Of a stretch of 24,787 bases of DNA, positions 6,923 to 22,715 are shown piece by piece; within the stretch, counting starts at the first letter, position 1; each line of letters begins with the position of its first letter. The position numbers and the translations under genes are program-made. The notes under the pieces were generated by a model. It did no database searches and was not told the origin of the DNA. It saw only the letters and a program-made list of their open reading frames with translations. Source of the DNA: a virus; the IMG/VR virus record IMGVR_UViG_3300044647_000339, positions 1-24,787 of that record; one strand, given 5' to 3'.

Positions 6923-7345
6923 TCATGCTTCCAGGTTGTTGATGCTGGTGCGGTATCTCACCTGATAGGTGCAGACCAGCCAGAGGGTGGAGAAATCAGC
7001 GCGATCAAATTGCGGATCCACGCCAGTCGGCACCATGTCGATCACCAGGCCGCCTAAGGAGCGATCACCCATCAGCTCGTTGTGCATGGCCACAACGATC
7101 GGGTCGGCCTCCTGATGTGGCACCACGCCGCGTGCATAGATGGCCACCAGCACATCCAGCGACCATTCCAGTTTGCAGGTGTTCACCACGCTGGGGTTGT
7201 CCCGGCCAGGCTCGATCACGATGGCTGGCGCTTCGTCGCGATTGAAGGCCTGCTGCCTGCTGCGGAAGACGCGCCCATCGACACCGCTGGTGTTGATCAG
7301 CAGCGTTTCAACGCGCGCCAGGATCTGCTCTCGTTTGCTGCTCAT
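6923..7345 (-). CDS. Tail terminator / completion protein (gpU-like)
   Basis: A 140-residue protein starting MSSKREQILARVETLL, followed by VDGRVFRSRQQAFNRDEAPAIVIEPG (in part), the typical opening of minor tail U-type terminators: a helix, an arginine-rich strand, then a conserved 'P.I.i.pG' strand. The end, FSTLWLVCTYQVRYRT, is a beta strand also typical of the family. In lambda, gpU caps the tail tube and forms the joining surface to the head. Its gene lies before the tube gene, as here. Start ATG 7345 shares a base with the stop of the upstream giant gene (TGATG). Confidence 0.75.
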   Translation of the reverse strand: MSSKREQILARVETLLINTSGVDGRVFRSRQQAFNRDEAPAIVIEPGRDNPSVVNTCKLEWSLDVLVAIYARGVVPHQEADPIVVAMHNELMGDRSLGGLVIDMVPTGVDPQFDRADFSTLWLVCTYQVRYRTSINNLEA

Positions 7346-9987
7346 CAGTCGTGTGCCTTGATCATCACGTAGCCAGCGGTGACGCCTGAGCCGGCGGTGC
7401 TCACCCTGACGCGCATCAGCGCAGCGTTGATGTCCACCACCGTCAGCTGCACCGTGGAGCTGGCCACAGCGGTGAGCGGTGTGCCGATTGCGTACCAGCT
7501 GGCGCCGTTGTCGTCGGAGCCCTCCATCTGGAGCGCTGGTGCCGTGGTGGTGATTGCGCCGACGTTGACCACCAGCTGGGCGCGGTTGCCGGCATCCCTG
7601 GTGTCCAGGCTTGGCGTCGTGCTGTTGAGGGTGGTCAGCACGATGCTGCGATCAATCAGCTGGCGCACGGCTTCGGAGCTGTTGCTGTTCTGCAGACGGT
7701 TGATCGCCCTGGTGAACGATGGCGTGGTGCCGCCGACGGTCTGCACATAGCGCACCCGGTTGCCGACAATCCTGATGAGCGGTGAGCGGTAGATTCCCGT
7801 GCCGGTAATCCTCGGGAAGTCGTAGACCTTGAACCAGTTGCCGCCCGAATCGTCAGATTCCTCGATGGCCACATCCAGCGTTGGCGTGGTGCCTGTGACT
7901 GCGGTGACCGGAATGCTGACGCTGTAGCTGGTGCCAAACGTCGGTGTGAATGCCGCCGTGGTCGTGGTTGTTGTCAACGCGGCTGAGGCCACATCCGCGA
8001 TGATGCCCGGCAGCGCCAGGTTGGCAGAGGTGACGGCTGCGACGGTGCCTGTGCCGATGTTGGCGGTGACCGTGCCGCTCACCGGCTGGGTGCCCAACGC
8101 ACCGCCCAGCACCTGCACCGGCAGCGCATGGCTGCCAACAGGATCGCTACTGGCTACTCGAATCTTCTGCCGTCCCTGATCCTCAATCTGAATAAATCCG
8201 GTTGTCAGTGTGGTGGTGCTGGCCGGCGCAGTGCTGCCGTTCTGCACCACGATGAACAGATACAACACCGTGTCAGGATCAGGAACGTTCTCGATCCTGC
8301 TGGCTCGGTTTGTCCACTGATAGCCGGTGTTACTGGCCACCAGCGCATCAGAGAATCCGGCCGTGAATACGTCAAAGTTGATCTGCCCAACATGGCCAGG
8401 CGTCGCGGTGGTGTTGATCGTGGCGGTGGTGTTGCCGCTGTTCCAGCCACGGCGCTGTGCGTCGAAGTTGGCATTGGTCGCAGTGGTGCCGCTGTACTCC
8501 AACTGGATGTGATTCCAGCCGTACAGGGTCAGGGTGCCGCTGCCGGATGCCGGCCATGCTGCAACGGTGAAGGTGACTGTGAGCCCTGAGACGCTGGCAA
8601 TGGCATAGCGGCCTGGGATGCCGGCGGCGCCAGTGATTCGCGACAGTCGCACGCTCTGGCCGACATTGGCCGCTGTGAACGGGTTGGTGGTGGGGAAAGT
8701 GACTGTGACGCTGGTGGCGCTGTTGATTGTGTAGGACAGCGCCGCACCAATCAGATCAGCCAGCTCAAACCTGAATGTCTGGTTGACGATCCTCTGAGAC
8801 AGGATCACCTTCAGGCGTGCCAGCAATGATCCTGAGAACGTATCAATCGAGCGGATCACCGTTTCGCTGTTGGCGGTGGTGCCAGTCGTGATGACAAGGT
8901 TTCCGGCCGACTGGTTCACCGTCATGCCGCTGCCCGTCTGCAGCAGGGTGAACTCCTCAGCCGCTTTGCCGACGATCCCGCTGCCGACTTCAGCAAAGCC
9001 CGCACGCATGAATGCTGGGCTGGTGTTGATCACCTCTACAGGCGTGGCCCGCAGCTCGGTGTCCGTCAGCCCGCCACCGCCAGCCGGCAACACCACCGGC
9101 AGCCGGCCGCTGTCCAGCGCCGGAAGCTTCCCGTTCACTGCTGCCAGCGTCGTCTCTGTTGCGGCGCCAGTGGGGAGCGGCAGGGCACTGGCGCTCACCG
9201 GCTGCGTGGCCTGCCAGAAGGTGCCAGACACAGGCACCGCCGTGGCTCGCAGCTGGACATCAGTCAGCGGTCCTGACACCGGCTGCGTTGCCTGCCAGAA
9301 CGTGCCACTTACAGGTACCGCCGTGGCGCGCAGCTCGGTGTCGGTCAGCGGGCCAGAGACTGCAGCAGTGCCTGTGATCGACACGCTGCCGCTGATCGGC
9401 TGTGTCGCCTGCCAGAACGTGCCGCTCACCGGCACCGCCGTGGCGCGCAGCTGGACATCAGTCAGCGGTCCTGACACCGGCTGCGTCGCCTGCCAGAACG
9501 TGCCACTTACAGGCTGCGTGACGCCGCTGCCATCCACCGGCAGGCGGCCGCTCACCAGGGCCGGCACCTTGCCATCGATGCTGCTCAGGCTGCTGTTGCC
9601 GGTCGTCTGATTCGCGGCCGTGGCAACACCGCTCACGCTCACCGGAACGGGTGATGCGCGCAGCTCTGCATTCGTCAGGCCGCCGCCGCCACCACCGCCG
9701 CCGCCGCCACCACCGCCGGATGAGGTCAGGTCATCGATGAACACCTGCAGCCGATCCGCAGCGCTCATCGACTGCGTGCTGAACTCAAGCGTCAGCGTCG
9801 TGTTGCCACCGCCGGTGGTCAGCACCGCGCCCTTCGATGGCACGTTGAACTGATACAGGATCGTGCCGCTGGTCACGTTCGTGATCAGCAGGAACTGCTC
9901 CAGCGTGTAACTGCCAGGCACCACCACAGTGCCGGCATTGGCGGCGCCGGGCGTGAAGCTGTAGCTGGAAAGCAGTTGCTTGGCCAT
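7345..9987 (-). CDS. Large repeat-rich virion protein (head or neck fibre candidate)
   Basis: An 880-residue protein between the FII-like connector and tail terminator genes. Residues 1-90 form a small beta domain, and residues 91-103 are 13 consecutive glycines. Residues 105-315 hold repeats built on LTDxxLRATAVPVSG and SGTFWQATQPVSG (five copies of the first, four of the second). A middle domain (about 325-640) follows. The C-terminus has two related beta domains (about 660-765 and 770-880) with TPTLDVAIEESDDSGGNWF and APALQMEGSDDNGASWY. The same domain occurs in the 127-residue protein encoded just after the capsid gene. The make-up is that of a fibre or decoration protein. Its place in the head-tail joining block suggests attachment at the capsid or neck, but a tail location is possible. 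Confidence 0.72.
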   Translation of the reverse strand: MAKQLLSSYSFTPGAANAGTVVVPGSYTLEQFLLITNVTSGTILYQFNVPSKGAVLTTGGGNTTLTLEFSTQSMSAADRLQVFIDDLTSSGGGGGGGGGGGGGLTNAELRASPVPVSVSGVATAANQTTGNSSLSSIDGKVPALVSGRLPVDGSGVTQPVSGTFWQATQPVSGPLTDVQLRATAVPVSGTFWQATQPISGSVSITGTAAVSGPLTDTELRATAVPVSGTFWQATQPVSGPLTDVQLRATAVPVSGTFWQATQPVSASALPLPTGAATETTLAAVNGKLPALDSGRLPVVLPAGGGGLTDTELRATPVEVINTSPAFMRAGFAEVGSGIVGKAAEEFTLLQTGSGMTVNQSAGNLVITTGTTANSETVIRSIDTFSGSLLARLKVILSQRIVNQTFRFELADLIGAALSYTINSATSVTVTFPTTNPFTAANVGQSVRLSRITGAAGIPGRYAIASVSGLTVTFTVAAWPASGSGTLTLYGWNHIQLEYSGTTATNANFDAQRRGWNSGNTTATINTTATPGHVGQINFDVFTAGFSDALVASNTGYQWTNRASRIENVPDPDTVLYLFIVVQNGSTAPASTTTLTTGFIQIEDQGRQKIRVASSDPVGSHALPVQVLGGALGTQPVSGTVTANIGTGTVAAVTSANLALPGIIADVASAALTTTTTTAAFTPTFGTSYSVSIPVTAVTGTTPTLDVAIEESDDSGGNWFKVYDFPRITGTGIYRSPLIRIVGNRVRYVQTVGGTTPSFTRAINRLQNSNSSEAVRQLIDRSIVLTTLNSTTPSLDTRDAGNRAQLVVNVGAITTTAPALQMEGSDDNGASWYAIGTPLTAVASSTVQLTVVDINAALMRVRVSTAGSGVTAGYVMIKAHD
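9196..9530 (-). repeat. In-frame DNA repeats of the fibre-like gene
   Basis: Four copies of a segment encoding SGTFWQATQP alternate with segments encoding LTDxxLRATAVPV. Adjacent copies are almost identical at the DNA level, so recent duplication or gene conversion is likely. Such repeats can change number by slippage or recombination. Confidence 0.8.
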
Positions 9988-19393: not shown

Positions 19394-20077
19394 TCAGAAC
19401 GGCGGCGGATCAGCATTCCGAGCCTTGTAGGTAGCCCAGGCGCCAGCCCACGCCAGCAGGCACTCAGAGCGGCTGTAGAGGGGGCTGAAGGTGGTCGAGC
19501 CAGGACGGCACCAGATGGTTTGCCCTGCGTCGTAGTGATGGCCGTGCGTGGCCTCCAGCGCCATGTATCCACCCAGCTGTGCTGCGGTGCTGTAGGTGGC
19601 GCCGTTCTCGCCCAGGCTCTTCAGGTCGGCCAGGATGCGCCGGCCGTCTTCATCGATGTAGGCAGCGTCATAGGTGCCGGCGACTTTGCGGCGGATGCAG
19701 CAGGTGGGGCGTTCGCTGGCGATCACCTGCAGCTGGTGCCAGCGGTCGTGCTCGAGGAGCGGCTGGATCCAGGTGCTGTGATCACCAACCGCCAGGGCGC
19801 CGAGCTCAGCGATGGCATGGCGGATCTGTTCGATGCCCCAGGGTGAGCCGGCGGTGGTGCCGAGCATGAGCTCAAGGGCGCGGTGGCAGTTGTTGCCTCT
19901 GGGTTCCCAGGTGGAGCGTGTGGCCATGATCCGCTGCATGGCGAAGTCGGATTTCAGGCAGCCGATGACGCCGGTGACGCTGATGGGGAACTCCAGCTGG
20001 CCTAGCCAGTAGCGGTGTTCAGGATCGCGGCGGTGCAGGCCATCGATCGGCGGCAGCCAGTGGGTGGGGGTGGGCAT
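19394..20077 (-). CDS. RecB/Cas4-type PD-(D/E)XK exonuclease
   Basis: A 227-residue nuclease. Motifs in order: SVTGVIGC (33-40), GNNCHRALELML (His65, in the helix before the core), AGTYDAAY (Asp137), ILADLKSL (Asp151, Lys153) and AAQLGGYMAL (Gln167, Tyr171). This is the RecB-family order of H, D, D-x-K and Q-xxx-Y. Such phage enzymes process DNA ends in recombination. A Cys pair (126/127) and Cys190 are present, but the four-Cys cluster of Cas4 is not evident. The start ATG 20077 has an A/C-rich leader with no Shine-Dalgarno site. The gene follows the 22-bp inverted-repeat region downstream of the primase gene. Confidence 0.85.
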   Translation of the reverse strand: MPTPTHWLPPIDGLHRRDPEHRYWLGQLEFPISVTGVIGCLKSDFAMQRIMATRSTWEPRGNNCHRALELMLGTTAGSPWGIEQIRHAIAELGALAVGDHSTWIQPLLEHDRWHQLQVIASERPTCCIRRKVAGTYDAAYIDEDGRRILADLKSLGENGATYSTAAQLGGYMALEATHGHHYDAGQTIWCRPGSTTFSPLYSRSECLLAWAGAWATYKARNADPPPF

Positions 20078-20328
20078 GGATGGGTGGGGGTGGTGAGGGT
20101 CGCGCGCGCGAAGTGAATGCGCACTTGTGACTCCACTGGCTCAGACTCCTGAGCCTGACTGGGGTTTGGCCTTGTCACCAGGCAGTCATCATGTGATTAC
20201 GGTGTGCCAATTCCTTTATTGGACTAGCGGAGTCACATGATGACTGCCTGGTGATCTGCTTAAAACTCTCTCTATGACAGGGTTTTTAGGACATAGAGTC
20301 ACATTGGAACGGACGCTATTAAGGGGGA
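20078..20328. other. Non-coding region: candidate replication origin or regulatory locus
   Basis: A 251-base gap between primase-helicase and RecB-like genes, the longest in the window. It holds a 12-base CG palindrome (20100-20111), a 7-bp hairpin GGCTCAG/CTGAGCC (20138-20155), a perfect 22-bp inverted repeat (20175-20196 with 20233-20254), and a 7-bp pair CTCTATG/CATAGAG (20270-20276, 20292-20298). It is locally A/T-richer than its surroundings. The word AGTCACAT recurs at 20231-20238 and 20297-20304. Such density of symmetry beside a primase gene suits an origin, but operator sites or an RNA structure are also possible. Confidence 0.5.
20175..20254. repeat. Perfect 22-bp inverted repeat with nested hairpin
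   Basis: The arms at 20175-20196 (starting TCACCAGGCAGTCATC) and 20233-20254 (ending GACTGCCTGGTGA) are exact inverted copies, separated by 36 bases. The spacer has its own CCAAT/ATTGG pair flanking TCCTTT. Each arm also has a partial palindrome, AGTCA-n5-TGACT or a variant. No run of T follows, so it is not a simple terminator. Confidence 0.9.
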
Positions 20329-22545
20329 TCACGGCGGCATGGGCTGATCGCCGTTCCGCTCGAGCCATTCCCGTGCGACTGGGGTGAGCTTCCAGTGGCC
20401 AGGCATTGAGGCAACCCTGGCGACCATGGGCCGCCTGCCGCCGCTGGCCCGGGTGAGGCTGTTGGCAACCGAGCCGCTGCTGTAGCCCTTGGCTTTGCCG
20501 AGCTGAGCGATGATCTCCCGCCGATGCAGCGATGGTTTGCCGGACTGCAAAGCCTCCCAGAGCAGCGTCCTGACGCCATGGCGCACGTCTCGGATCACCT
20601 CGGTCATGGCGGTGACGGCGAGCCGGCCGGTGTCTTCGTCGATCTGGTAATTGAACTCCCGAGCTGTTCCCTGCCGGCACTTGCGCACGATCCAGGTGCG
20701 GCGCCATGTGCTGATGCGCTTCTTGCCGGCTGACTTATCCGGCGGTCCTTCAAAGCCTTCATCGTCGCCACCTTCCATGACCGGCTGGATGCCGTGAACG
20801 ATGGAGGGGATCTCTTTCCATGCCTTGGCGCCGGCCGCCTCACCGCCGCCGGTACCGTCGTGGTTGAGCCAGAGCACCGCTGTGTGCTGACAGATCACCT
20901 CCTTGACGAAGGTGAGCAGCGCCGTGACTTGGCCGTTGTCGCAGTAGTTGAGATCAGCGCGGCTGGTGGCGGCCTTGCAGCTGTCGATGATCACCAGGGC
21001 GATCTTCTGGCTCTGCACGAAGTCAAGCAGCGCCAGGCAGCCACGCAGGCCGGCGTCCCAACCCAGTGCAGCCTGATCGGAATCGTGAGCCCAGACATGG
21101 AGCCGGAAGCCGTCATGGGTTGGACTGATCGCCGGATGGTCGGCCTTGCCCAGATCCTGCAGGGTGCGGATGAGCGGTGCGGGGCCTGAGTCGGTGGCGA
21201 TCATCAGGACGCTGCCGGCCTGCGGCTGCGCCTCACGATCGAGAAAGCCGGTGCCATCGATGATGGCGAACGCCATTGCCAGTGCTGCGGTGGTCTTGCC
21301 GGCGCCGGCTGGCGCATAGAGCAGGGCCTGATCGTTGGCAGGCAGGAAGCCCTCGAGCAGCCAATCAAGGCTGATCACCTTGGAGAGGTCGATCGATCGA
21401 TAGGTGGGCCGCTCCTTTGTTGCTGTGCCGGTTCGGTGCTGCTCCTGCTCGGTGAGCAGGCGGAACAGGGCGGCATTGATCTGGCCATCAGTGCGCCGAA
21501 ATCGCGCCATGATTTCCGCGCGCGCTTCCATCTCGGTGTCGTCGTCCTGGCTGCGGATGGCTGCCAGCGTCACCGTCAGCAGTTCGCGGTAGGTGGCCGG
21601 TGGTGGCTCGGTTGGATCAGCCGCTCCGGCGTCAGCGGCTGCGCCTGATGACTTTCCCGGCTGCTGCTCACCTTGCGGGCGGCGGTAGCGGAATCCACCG
21701 AGGGTATCGGCTAGGTAGTGCAGGGTTCCGATGGTGGTGCCGGAGCTTTTGAAGCTCTGCCACTTGGTGATGCACTCTTCCTCGTCGAAGTTGCTGCAGC
21801 CCTTGGACCAGTCCACCCAGTCGCTGATCAGGCCAGCGGAGACGCTGTGCAGGGCCATGCCGACCCGCAGCCAGCGGTCGTAGTCATCACAGGGGGGGAT
21901 GTGCTTGAGCAGCTCCTGTGCCCGGGGAATGTCGGCCTCGCTGGCCGGCTGGTGCTCCGCTGCCGCGGGTTCGGTTGAGGCCTTCAGCATTGGCCACAGC
22001 AACCAATCCGGTGCATCGGCCACCTGCTGCTCAGCAGGGGAGCGGCCATCGATCCAGCGGTAGCCCTCGGTATCAGGGTGCGCGCCAGCAATGACGGACT
22101 GGTGGCCAGTGCCGCGCAGTTCCAGCACGGTCCGACCGGCGTCGTTGTGCCAGACCCTGCGGCCGCGCAGATGGGGCCACAGATCAGGCGCCACCCTGAA
22201 GGCCATTTGGCGGCGGTTGATCACGCCACTGCTCCAGGCCACGGTGGGCGGCAGGTCGGACCAGATGCGGCCGTAGACCTCCTTGAACTTGGCCACGGCG
22301 CCGGTGCCATCGAAGTCCACGGCGATCACGCCGGACGGCTCACCGAGCACCAGGCCGACGGCCTTGACGAAGCTGGAATCCGCCAGCTCGGCAATTCCAT
22401 CGGCGTCGTAGGTGCTGTGGCACCAGTCCGTTTTGACGATGCCGGTGTTGGGGTCCACGGGCCGCTTGAGGCCATCGCATGGGATGAGCTGCCAGTCGGA
22501 ATCAACCAGCTGGAGCTCCGCAAGGAGCTCAGGGGTAAGGGTCAT
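20329..22545 (-). CDS. Primase-polymerase/helicase fusion for phage DNA replication
   Basis: A 738-residue protein. The N-terminal prim-pol domain (residues 10-185) has GVIAVDFDGTGA with DxD at about 77-79, and TVLELRGTGHQSVIAGAHP. A PriCT-like segment follows (LLKHIPPCDDYDRWLRVGMA, to about 285), then a Pro/Ala-rich linker. The RepA/RecA-like ATPase has Walker A YAPAGAGKTT (410-419) and Walker B IALVIID (515-521). A C-terminal winged-helix-like part (about 640-720) ends it. By family it primes and unwinds at the origin. The start is ATG 22545, sharing a base with the RHH stop (TGATG); GTG 22548 is less likely. Confidence 0.9.
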   Translation of the reverse strand: MTLTPELLAELQLVDSDWQLIPCDGLKRPVDPNTGIVKTDWCHSTYDADGIAELADSSFVKAVGLVLGEPSGVIAVDFDGTGAVAKFKEVYGRIWSDLPPTVAWSSGVINRRQMAFRVAPDLWPHLRGRRVWHNDAGRTVLELRGTGHQSVIAGAHPDTEGYRWIDGRSPAEQQVADAPDWLLWPMLKASTEPAAAEHQPASEADIPRAQELLKHIPPCDDYDRWLRVGMALHSVSAGLISDWVDWSKGCSNFDEEECITKWQSFKSSGTTIGTLHYLADTLGGFRYRRPQGEQQPGKSSGAAADAGAADPTEPPPATYRELLTVTLAAIRSQDDDTEMEARAEIMARFRRTDGQINAALFRLLTEQEQHRTGTATKERPTYRSIDLSKVISLDWLLEGFLPANDQALLYAPAGAGKTTAALAMAFAIIDGTGFLDREAQPQAGSVLMIATDSGPAPLIRTLQDLGKADHPAISPTHDGFRLHVWAHDSDQAALGWDAGLRGCLALLDFVQSQKIALVIIDSCKAATSRADLNYCDNGQVTALLTFVKEVICQHTAVLWLNHDGTGGGEAAGAKAWKEIPSIVHGIQPVMEGGDDEGFEGPPDKSAGKKRISTWRRTWIVRKCRQGTAREFNYQIDEDTGRLAVTAMTEVIRDVRHGVRTLLWEALQSGKPSLHRREIIAQLGKAKGYSSGSVANSLTRASGGRRPMVARVASMPGHWKLTPVAREWLERNGDQPMPP

Positions 22546-22715
22546 CACTTGCGGTGTTCCGACTCGGGAGCCTGAGCCAGAAGCGGCAGGGGGGACTCCA
22601 TTGCCCGCTGAATGCAGAGCCGGATGGCGGCTGATCGGGTGAGGCTGCCGCAGCGGGTTTGGCGCTCAATCCAGGAGGCCTGCTGCGGCGTGAGGCGAAC
22701 GGGTACGGGGTGCAT
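22545..22715 (-). CDS. Ribbon-helix-helix (Arc/CopG-type) regulator
   Basis: A 56-residue protein. VPVRLTPQQ (residues 4-12) is the beta strand that enters the DNA major groove, and QQASWIERQT and LTRSAAIRLCIQRAM (25-39) are the two helices with the typical RSxAIR motif. The C-terminus (LLAQAPESEHRK) is disordered. It is the first gene leftward, and ATG 22715 faces the rightward cassette across a 137-bp gap with a GTAGAC/GTCTAC inverted repeat. It probably represses its own and the divergent promoter. The family is clear from motifs; the operator is inference. It overlaps the primase gene (TGATG). Confidence 0.78.
   Translation of the reverse strand: MHPVPVRLTPQQASWIERQTRCGSLTRSAAIRLCIQRAMESPLPLLAQAPESEHRK

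Follow-up and report, generated by a model that had tools for sequence, protein, structure and literature searches.

The locus raises the question of what function is served by a perfect inverted repeat lying in the 251-bp intergenic gap (20078-20328) between a primase-helicase gene and an exonuclease-like gene, and beginning 74 bases past the primase-helicase stop codon in the coding direction. The window, by which we mean the whole 24,787-nt (24.8-kb) virus record, carries its genes almost all on the - strand and encodes a lambda-type terminase, tail genes, the exonuclease and a protein that combines the domains Prim-Pol, PriCT_2 and AAA_25, as detected by Pfam and PHROG. In this protein, Pfam places Prim-Pol at residues 12-182 and PriCT_2 at residues 211-280; the C-terminal half consists of an AAA_25/RepA-like helicase domain (residues 393-555) followed by a predicted winged helix. 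A small ORF that looks ribbon-helix-helix (RHH)-like by eye overlaps the primase start and had no match in Pfam. Its counterparts are found 5' of the primase gene in most loci examined (the window and L027-L063), and the order of RHH-like ORF and primase gene resembles that of orf56-orf904 in pRN1. The host is probably a freshwater Synechococcus, because the nearest cellular match was a Synechococcus lacustris contig (L052) whose primase is about 80% identical. GC skew reached its minimum near 17 kb, which is uninformative for an origin in a 24.8-kb fragment alone. Elsewhere in the window, the gene at 7345-9987 contains five imperfect direct repeats of ~40-128 bases each (9037-9685).

The geometry described in the first-pass annotation was reproduced: the two 22-bp arms are perfect reverse complements with no mismatch, 36 nt separate them, and within this spacer CCAAT (20207-20211) pairs with ATTGG (20218-20222). 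Allowing mismatches lengthened the arms to 37 nt, at 84%, and left a loop of 6 nt. The same annotation had judged the repeat far beyond chance; the repeat scored 22, and 60 dinucleotide-shuffled versions of the gap averaged 6.8 and never exceeded 10. By both RNA and DNA folding, the z-score of the repeat region was about -8 to -11 relative to shuffles. The spacer is moderately A+T-rich, with a GC content of 47% versus 62% for the whole window. The inverted repeat occurs once in the contig, and a search of isolate phage DNA for it returned no match. The coordinates of these features are collected in Table 1.

Table 1. Features of the locus, with the motif classes of related arrays in the last line
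Feature	Position	Strand	Details
Exonuclease-like gene, downstream of array	19394..20077	-	PHROG 298 exonuclease, 1.8e-6
Iteron 8, outside hairpin	20126..20132	+	TGTGACT; ATTCACAT in L052
Arm 2 (coding direction), iterons 5-7	20175..20196		(A)TCACAT / GATGACT / TGGTGA(C) on - strand
Spacer	20197..20232		36 nt, 47% GC; conserved core CGCTAGTCC (- strand)
Nested hairpin CCAAT...ATTGG	20207..20222		Inner pairing kept in aligned A-type relatives (L033: one G-T pair)
Arm 1 (coding direction), iterons 2-4	20233..20254		TCACCA / AGTCATC / ATGTGA(CT) on - strand
A+T-rich stretch with CTCTATG/CATAGAG inverted repeat	20255..20296		Kept in alignment; candidate melting element
Iteron 1	20297..20304		ATGTGACT on - strand; L052 alignment reads ATGTGAAT
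Primase-helicase (initiator)	20329..22548	-	Pfam 4.6e-18, 1.2e-19, 7.3e-17; PHROG DNA primase
C-terminal domain, residues 628-739; candidate iteron-binding domain	20332..20667	-	AlphaFold2 pLDDT 83
Predicted third (recognition) helix, residues 691-702, includes residue 695	20443..20478	-	AlphaFold2 model and alignment
56-aa RHH-like ORF overlapping primase start	22545..22715	-	Ribbon-helix-helix read by eye
Array motif classes: GTGAA, CGGACA, CGTGACA, CGGGAA, CCAACA, GTGGG, GGAAAC, CCTAAC			3' of primase

Because a search of viral contigs with the exact arms is biased toward an intact arm 1, relatives were recollected by protein. The loci compared here are kin to one another and so not independent, the viral contigs are mostly fragments, and the motif words were picked after inspection of the data. 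Exact 22-bp symmetry was found only in the window phage and in contig L003, which has an identical repeat region. In five close (A-type) relatives, 20/22, 18/22, 13/22, 16/22 and 19/22 arm positions were paired; the pairing decays in L033 and L038, and in L033 the 13/22 pairing is accompanied by a weak DNA fold (z -2.2). Relatives preserved the arms less well than the spacer core and inner hairpin. The first-pass annotation had named absence from close relatives, or random placement in them, as grounds for refutation, and the answer divides: the perfect 22-bp arms decay, but an array of short sites is present at the same place. This array comprises about eight GTGAC-like sites in both orientations just 3' of the primase-helicase gene. 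In these alignments, the conserved unit is the iteron array and not the perfect arms.

Within the window, the array contains only four exact GTGAC copies (p 2.7e-3 versus the rest of the contig) and is partly degenerate, so that homology, rather than its own counts, was the main ground for its recognition. A cleaner form of the same class is found in L095, which is 72% identical to the window and has eight GTGAC copies; the counterpart of arm 1 in this contig reads GTCACAT/AGTCACA/ATGTGACT. The best explanation of the 22-bp inverted repeat appears to be two facing iteron sets that read as one palindrome. Several window iterons are degenerate yet mirrored between both arms, a hint that symmetry itself matters here. 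Five differences in the gap separate the window from L026, two of them within arm 2, and both of these perfect the pairing in the window. These arm 2 differences would fit either a template-switch correction between the arms or selection for symmetry.

The Synechococcus lacustris contig L052 differs from the window at the iterons in a coordinated manner. At the window iteron positions it reads ATGTGAAT, GTTCACAT, ATTCACAT/ATGTGAAT, GTTCACAT/GTGAATT, ATGTGAAC and ATTCACAT, and the window has GTGAC-, GTGAT- or TGATGAC-type copies at the aligned positions. Over 240 bases of L052 there are nine copies of TGTGAA and none of GTGAC. The replacement of GTGAC/T in the window by GTGAA in L052 is a concerted change that includes the first and last copies, which lie outside the hairpin.

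These observations bear on the main rival explanation, that the hairpin or cruciform is itself the functional origin, with the initiator recognising or assembling on the structure and the base sequence being of minor importance. Strong stems are present in the window, L052, L071, L058, L095 and the Bordetella phage BPP-1, three stem pairs are altered on both sides in L052, and the window arms mirror even their degenerate iterons. In pRN1, moreover, the stem-loop is required, a mutation in one arm of the stem was rescued by restoring symmetry, and the authors, who reported no iterons and observed no specific binding in gel shifts, propose the stem-loop or cruciform structure as the origin. This explanation was retained because the pRN1 results suggest that structure may matter too. 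However, motif copies persist in L033, where the stem and its fold are weak, and in L038, L053, L055, L046 and L049, where no long stem beyond that of shuffles was detected. Motif changes are shared by the copies within and outside the stem, and the motif follows a domain of the initiator protein, as described below. We consider structure as the principal determinant of this origin unlikely.

Arrays were also found at the same location in related Synechococcus phages, with a different motif in each class. When scored in the gaps before a homologous exonuclease or after the primase, motif counts mostly exceeded those of all shuffles and far exceeded those of the rest of the locus. Copy numbers per array were 7-13 for CCAACA, 7-8 for CGGACA and for CGGGAA, 7 for GGAAAC, 8 for CGTGACA, 7-12 for GTGAA and 11 for CCTAAC (S-LBS1). 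Two facing iteron sets are present in many arrays, with a tandem spacing of 8-11 bp. The cyanophage S-EIV1, which has a related primase, displayed no obvious array after the primase gene.

Several of these arrays have features of their own. Three consecutive arrays (GTGGG, GTTCAC and GGTCAC) follow a single primase gene in L047 (507-1500); the latter two are copies of one array, with a motif letter changed throughout, at matching positions. In L053, a second array-like stretch with GTTCAC copies starts ~390 bases past the primase stop. The S-LBS1 array (L076:6164-6568) follows the primase, occupies the end of the genome record and includes a stretch of ~115 bases repeated ~256 bases apart. The CGGGAA arrays of L065-L075 are flanked by homopolymer runs of ~9-14 bases, poly-C at one border and poly-G at the opposite one, and run length differs among close relatives. 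In S-CBS3 (L078:1330-1500), a cluster of GTGACAAA and TTTGTCAC, with four copies of GTGACAAA, lies within the part of the RepA helicase gene that encodes the C-terminal end.

The diversity of motifs allowed each neighbouring gene to be compared with the array. L028 has an exonuclease 97% identical to that of the window, an unrelated primase of the DUF3987 type, and a TGTTGGC array. In L037 the PrimPol half is window-like, the helicase and C-terminus are 82% identical to those of L045, and the array has the CGGGAA core of L045. L050 and L031 have a common helicase core (52%), and their C-termini and motifs differ. As judged from these alignments, the motif tracks the C-terminal domain of the initiator, the sole part that agrees in each comparison, and does not track the primase N-terminus, the helicase core, the upstream RHH-like ORF or the downstream exonuclease.

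By AlphaFold2, the C-terminal domain of the window protein was modelled as a winged helix with the order H-H-H-strand-strand-H, and Foldseek matched it to winged helices of the BlaI, MarR and MftR types with probabilities of 0.9-1.0 and E values of at least 0.01. No sequence similarity to the window's C-terminus could be detected in that of the CGGACA class, which also models as a winged helix, with lower confidence (pLDDT 66) and with structural matches to PerR, SmtB and ArsR-like repressors. Across the helicase-plus-C-terminal stretch, L095 is 72% identical to the window and both have GTGAC arrays and Ala695, whereas L052, at 86% identity, has GTGAA and Gly695. Residue 695 is Ala with GTGAC arrays and Gly (L052) or Ser or Arg (other lineages) with GTGAA arrays. 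Since fourteen columns in this stretch separate the GTGAC and GTGAA groups, residue 695 is a candidate only.

The same comparisons weigh on a second alternative, in which the array is an operator for an RHH-like or phage repressor that controls the exonuclease or the replication operon. RHH repressors bind short repeats, the array consists of short direct and inverted repeats 5' of a gene, and most of the examined loci have an RHH-like ORF upstream. However, similarity of the RHH-like proteins fails to track the motif: those of the window and L029 are 42% identical over 36 aa and the motif is the same, while those of L052 and L045 are 62% identical and the motifs differ. The small RHH-like protein was rejected as the array binder on this ground. 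Exonuclease similarity fails likewise, since L028 has a different motif despite its near-identical exonuclease, and a scan for sigma-70-type promoters, a weak test, returned no match. An operator function is thus improbable. A structured RNA in the gap, suggested by the annotation and by the very stable RNA fold, or more specifically a transcription terminator, is highly improbable: a scan for terminators, as G+C-rich hairpins with a T-run behind them, found no T-tract terminator; Rfam returned no family at gathering score, the sub-threshold matches being unrelated microRNA families; and the stem is not conserved in relatives, while copies outside it are conserved and change in concert. Mobile-element ends (a MITE or transposon), also raised by the annotation on account of the short spacer and favoured by perfect terminal inverted repeats and short length, can be dismissed almost entirely, as there is one copy in the contig, no empty site was seen, and position and flanks are the same in all close relatives, diverging in step with the surrounding DNA.

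The annotation's suggestion of an origin or an initiator-binding site is the reading best supported by these data: a cluster of short sites lies directly 3' of the replication gene, and its motif appears to change in step with the predicted DNA-binding domain of the initiator. We infer that 20126-20304 is likely the replication origin of a rep-ori cassette, with the C-terminal winged helix as the part that would bind the iterons. The evidence is all comparative, comprising the array, its position, the concerted motif change, the C-terminal co-variation and the predicted fold. In the proposed mechanism, the winged helix of the PrimPol primase-helicase would bind about eight iterons with the core GTGAC/GTGAT. 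The two iteron sets face each other across the 36-nt spacer, and the initiator would assemble on both, melting the spacer or the adjoining A+T-rich stretch. The RepA-like helicase would then be loaded at the melted site and the PrimPol domain would prime there, perhaps at the inner hairpin. The inverted repeat may also extrude as a cruciform and assist, as in the pRN1 proposal. The binding, melting, helicase-loading and priming steps are drawn from SaPI/PICI, P4, RSF1010 and pRN1 (PMC6092414, PMC7581432, PMC4234260).

As a type, an iteron origin adjoining the initiator gene is ordinary; what is unusual is that many motif classes swap with the initiator domain in one phage group. No description of such arrays in cyanobacterial siphoviruses was found in the titles and abstracts of the papers that a text search returned. 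A broader reading, which we put forward tentatively and regard as possible rather than probable, is that these arrays form a cyanophage origin family in which motif and winged helix co-change across many classes, some changes occurring by whole-domain swap and others by a few recognition-helix residues, and that "structure-only" stem-loops of the pRN1 type are facing tandem iterons. If true, pairs of initiator winged helices and iterons would provide a readable DNA-recognition code, and selection for new origin addresses would be suggested, whether through incompatibility, satellites or origin-targeting nucleases. What selects new addresses in these phages is the question raised by such rapid motif change. 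The position of the arrays also offers a straightforward guide to the origins of PrimPol/RepA-like phages, natural domain-swap pairs are on hand for testing how initiators choose their origin, and a sequence-based reading becomes available for the pRN1 stem-loop origin, whose authors name no binding motif.

Several known systems share parts of this arrangement. In SaPI/PICI elements, two groups of iterons separated by a spacer lie immediately 3' of the gene for the initiator, whose C-terminus is responsible for origin recognition (PMC6092414; PMC7581432). The initiators of SaPI as well as of P4 bind to repeats (PMC6092414, PMC7581432, PMC4234260). The window likewise has repeated short sites directly 3' of its initiator gene, but its initiator has PrimPol and RepA-like helicase domains and its spacer is moderately A+T-rich. 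It is also a phage with terminase and tail genes, unlike a PICI satellite, which is without virion genes of its own. P4 alpha is a single protein acting on repeats, with a primase, a helicase and a winged helix that binds the origin (PMC4234260); its primase is of the Toprim type, in place of the Prim-Pol family found in the window. The RSF1010 oriV, served by RepA, RepB' and RepC, uses a RepA-type helicase, iterons and short hairpins for priming (PMC4234260). By analogy, the nested hairpin of the window could be a priming site of this type, although RSF1010 employs three separate proteins and the window one fused protein. In Vibrio cholerae PLE, replication modules swap and iterons change, and the ICP1 nuclease Odn, which targets the origin, may select for such changes (PMC8263062); PLE differs from the window in its RepA_N-type initiator and its three repeats of about 30 bp.

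pRN1 and BIP-1 also resemble the window in layout: in each, a stem of ~20 bp that encloses a large loop is found 3' of the initiator gene. A PrimPol domain and a winged helix, the latter predicted in the window, are common to all, whereas the helicase is AAA_25/RepA-like in the window and SF3 in the other two. In BPP-1 (record positions 26607-26710; L080:608-711), two copies of TTGCCTCGT face two inverted copies in a 22-bp stem with a 60-nt loop, located between bbp27 and bbp28 on the downstream side of the primase gene; this stem is a candidate origin of that phage. The distance from the primase stop to this stem, which is past bbp28, is about 470 bp, and the stem is possibly not the one that the pRN1 authors show in their Fig. 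6. The Sulfolobus plasmid pRN1 has a succession of small RHH-type gene, PrimPol/helicase/winged-helix gene and downstream stem-loop origin, an order that the window matches if its small ORF, RHH-like by eye, is counted as such a gene. Its proven origin (L081:385-484) has a 21-bp stem and a 58-nt loop, and each arm carries TGTCCA twice, 9 bp apart (shuffle P 0.006). The pRN2 stem contains only GTCC-N5-GTCC, which is within chance (shuffle P 0.39). The pRN1 stem can be read as tandem short motifs facing inverted copies, the organisation seen in the window, where the array differs in having additional iterons outside the stem.
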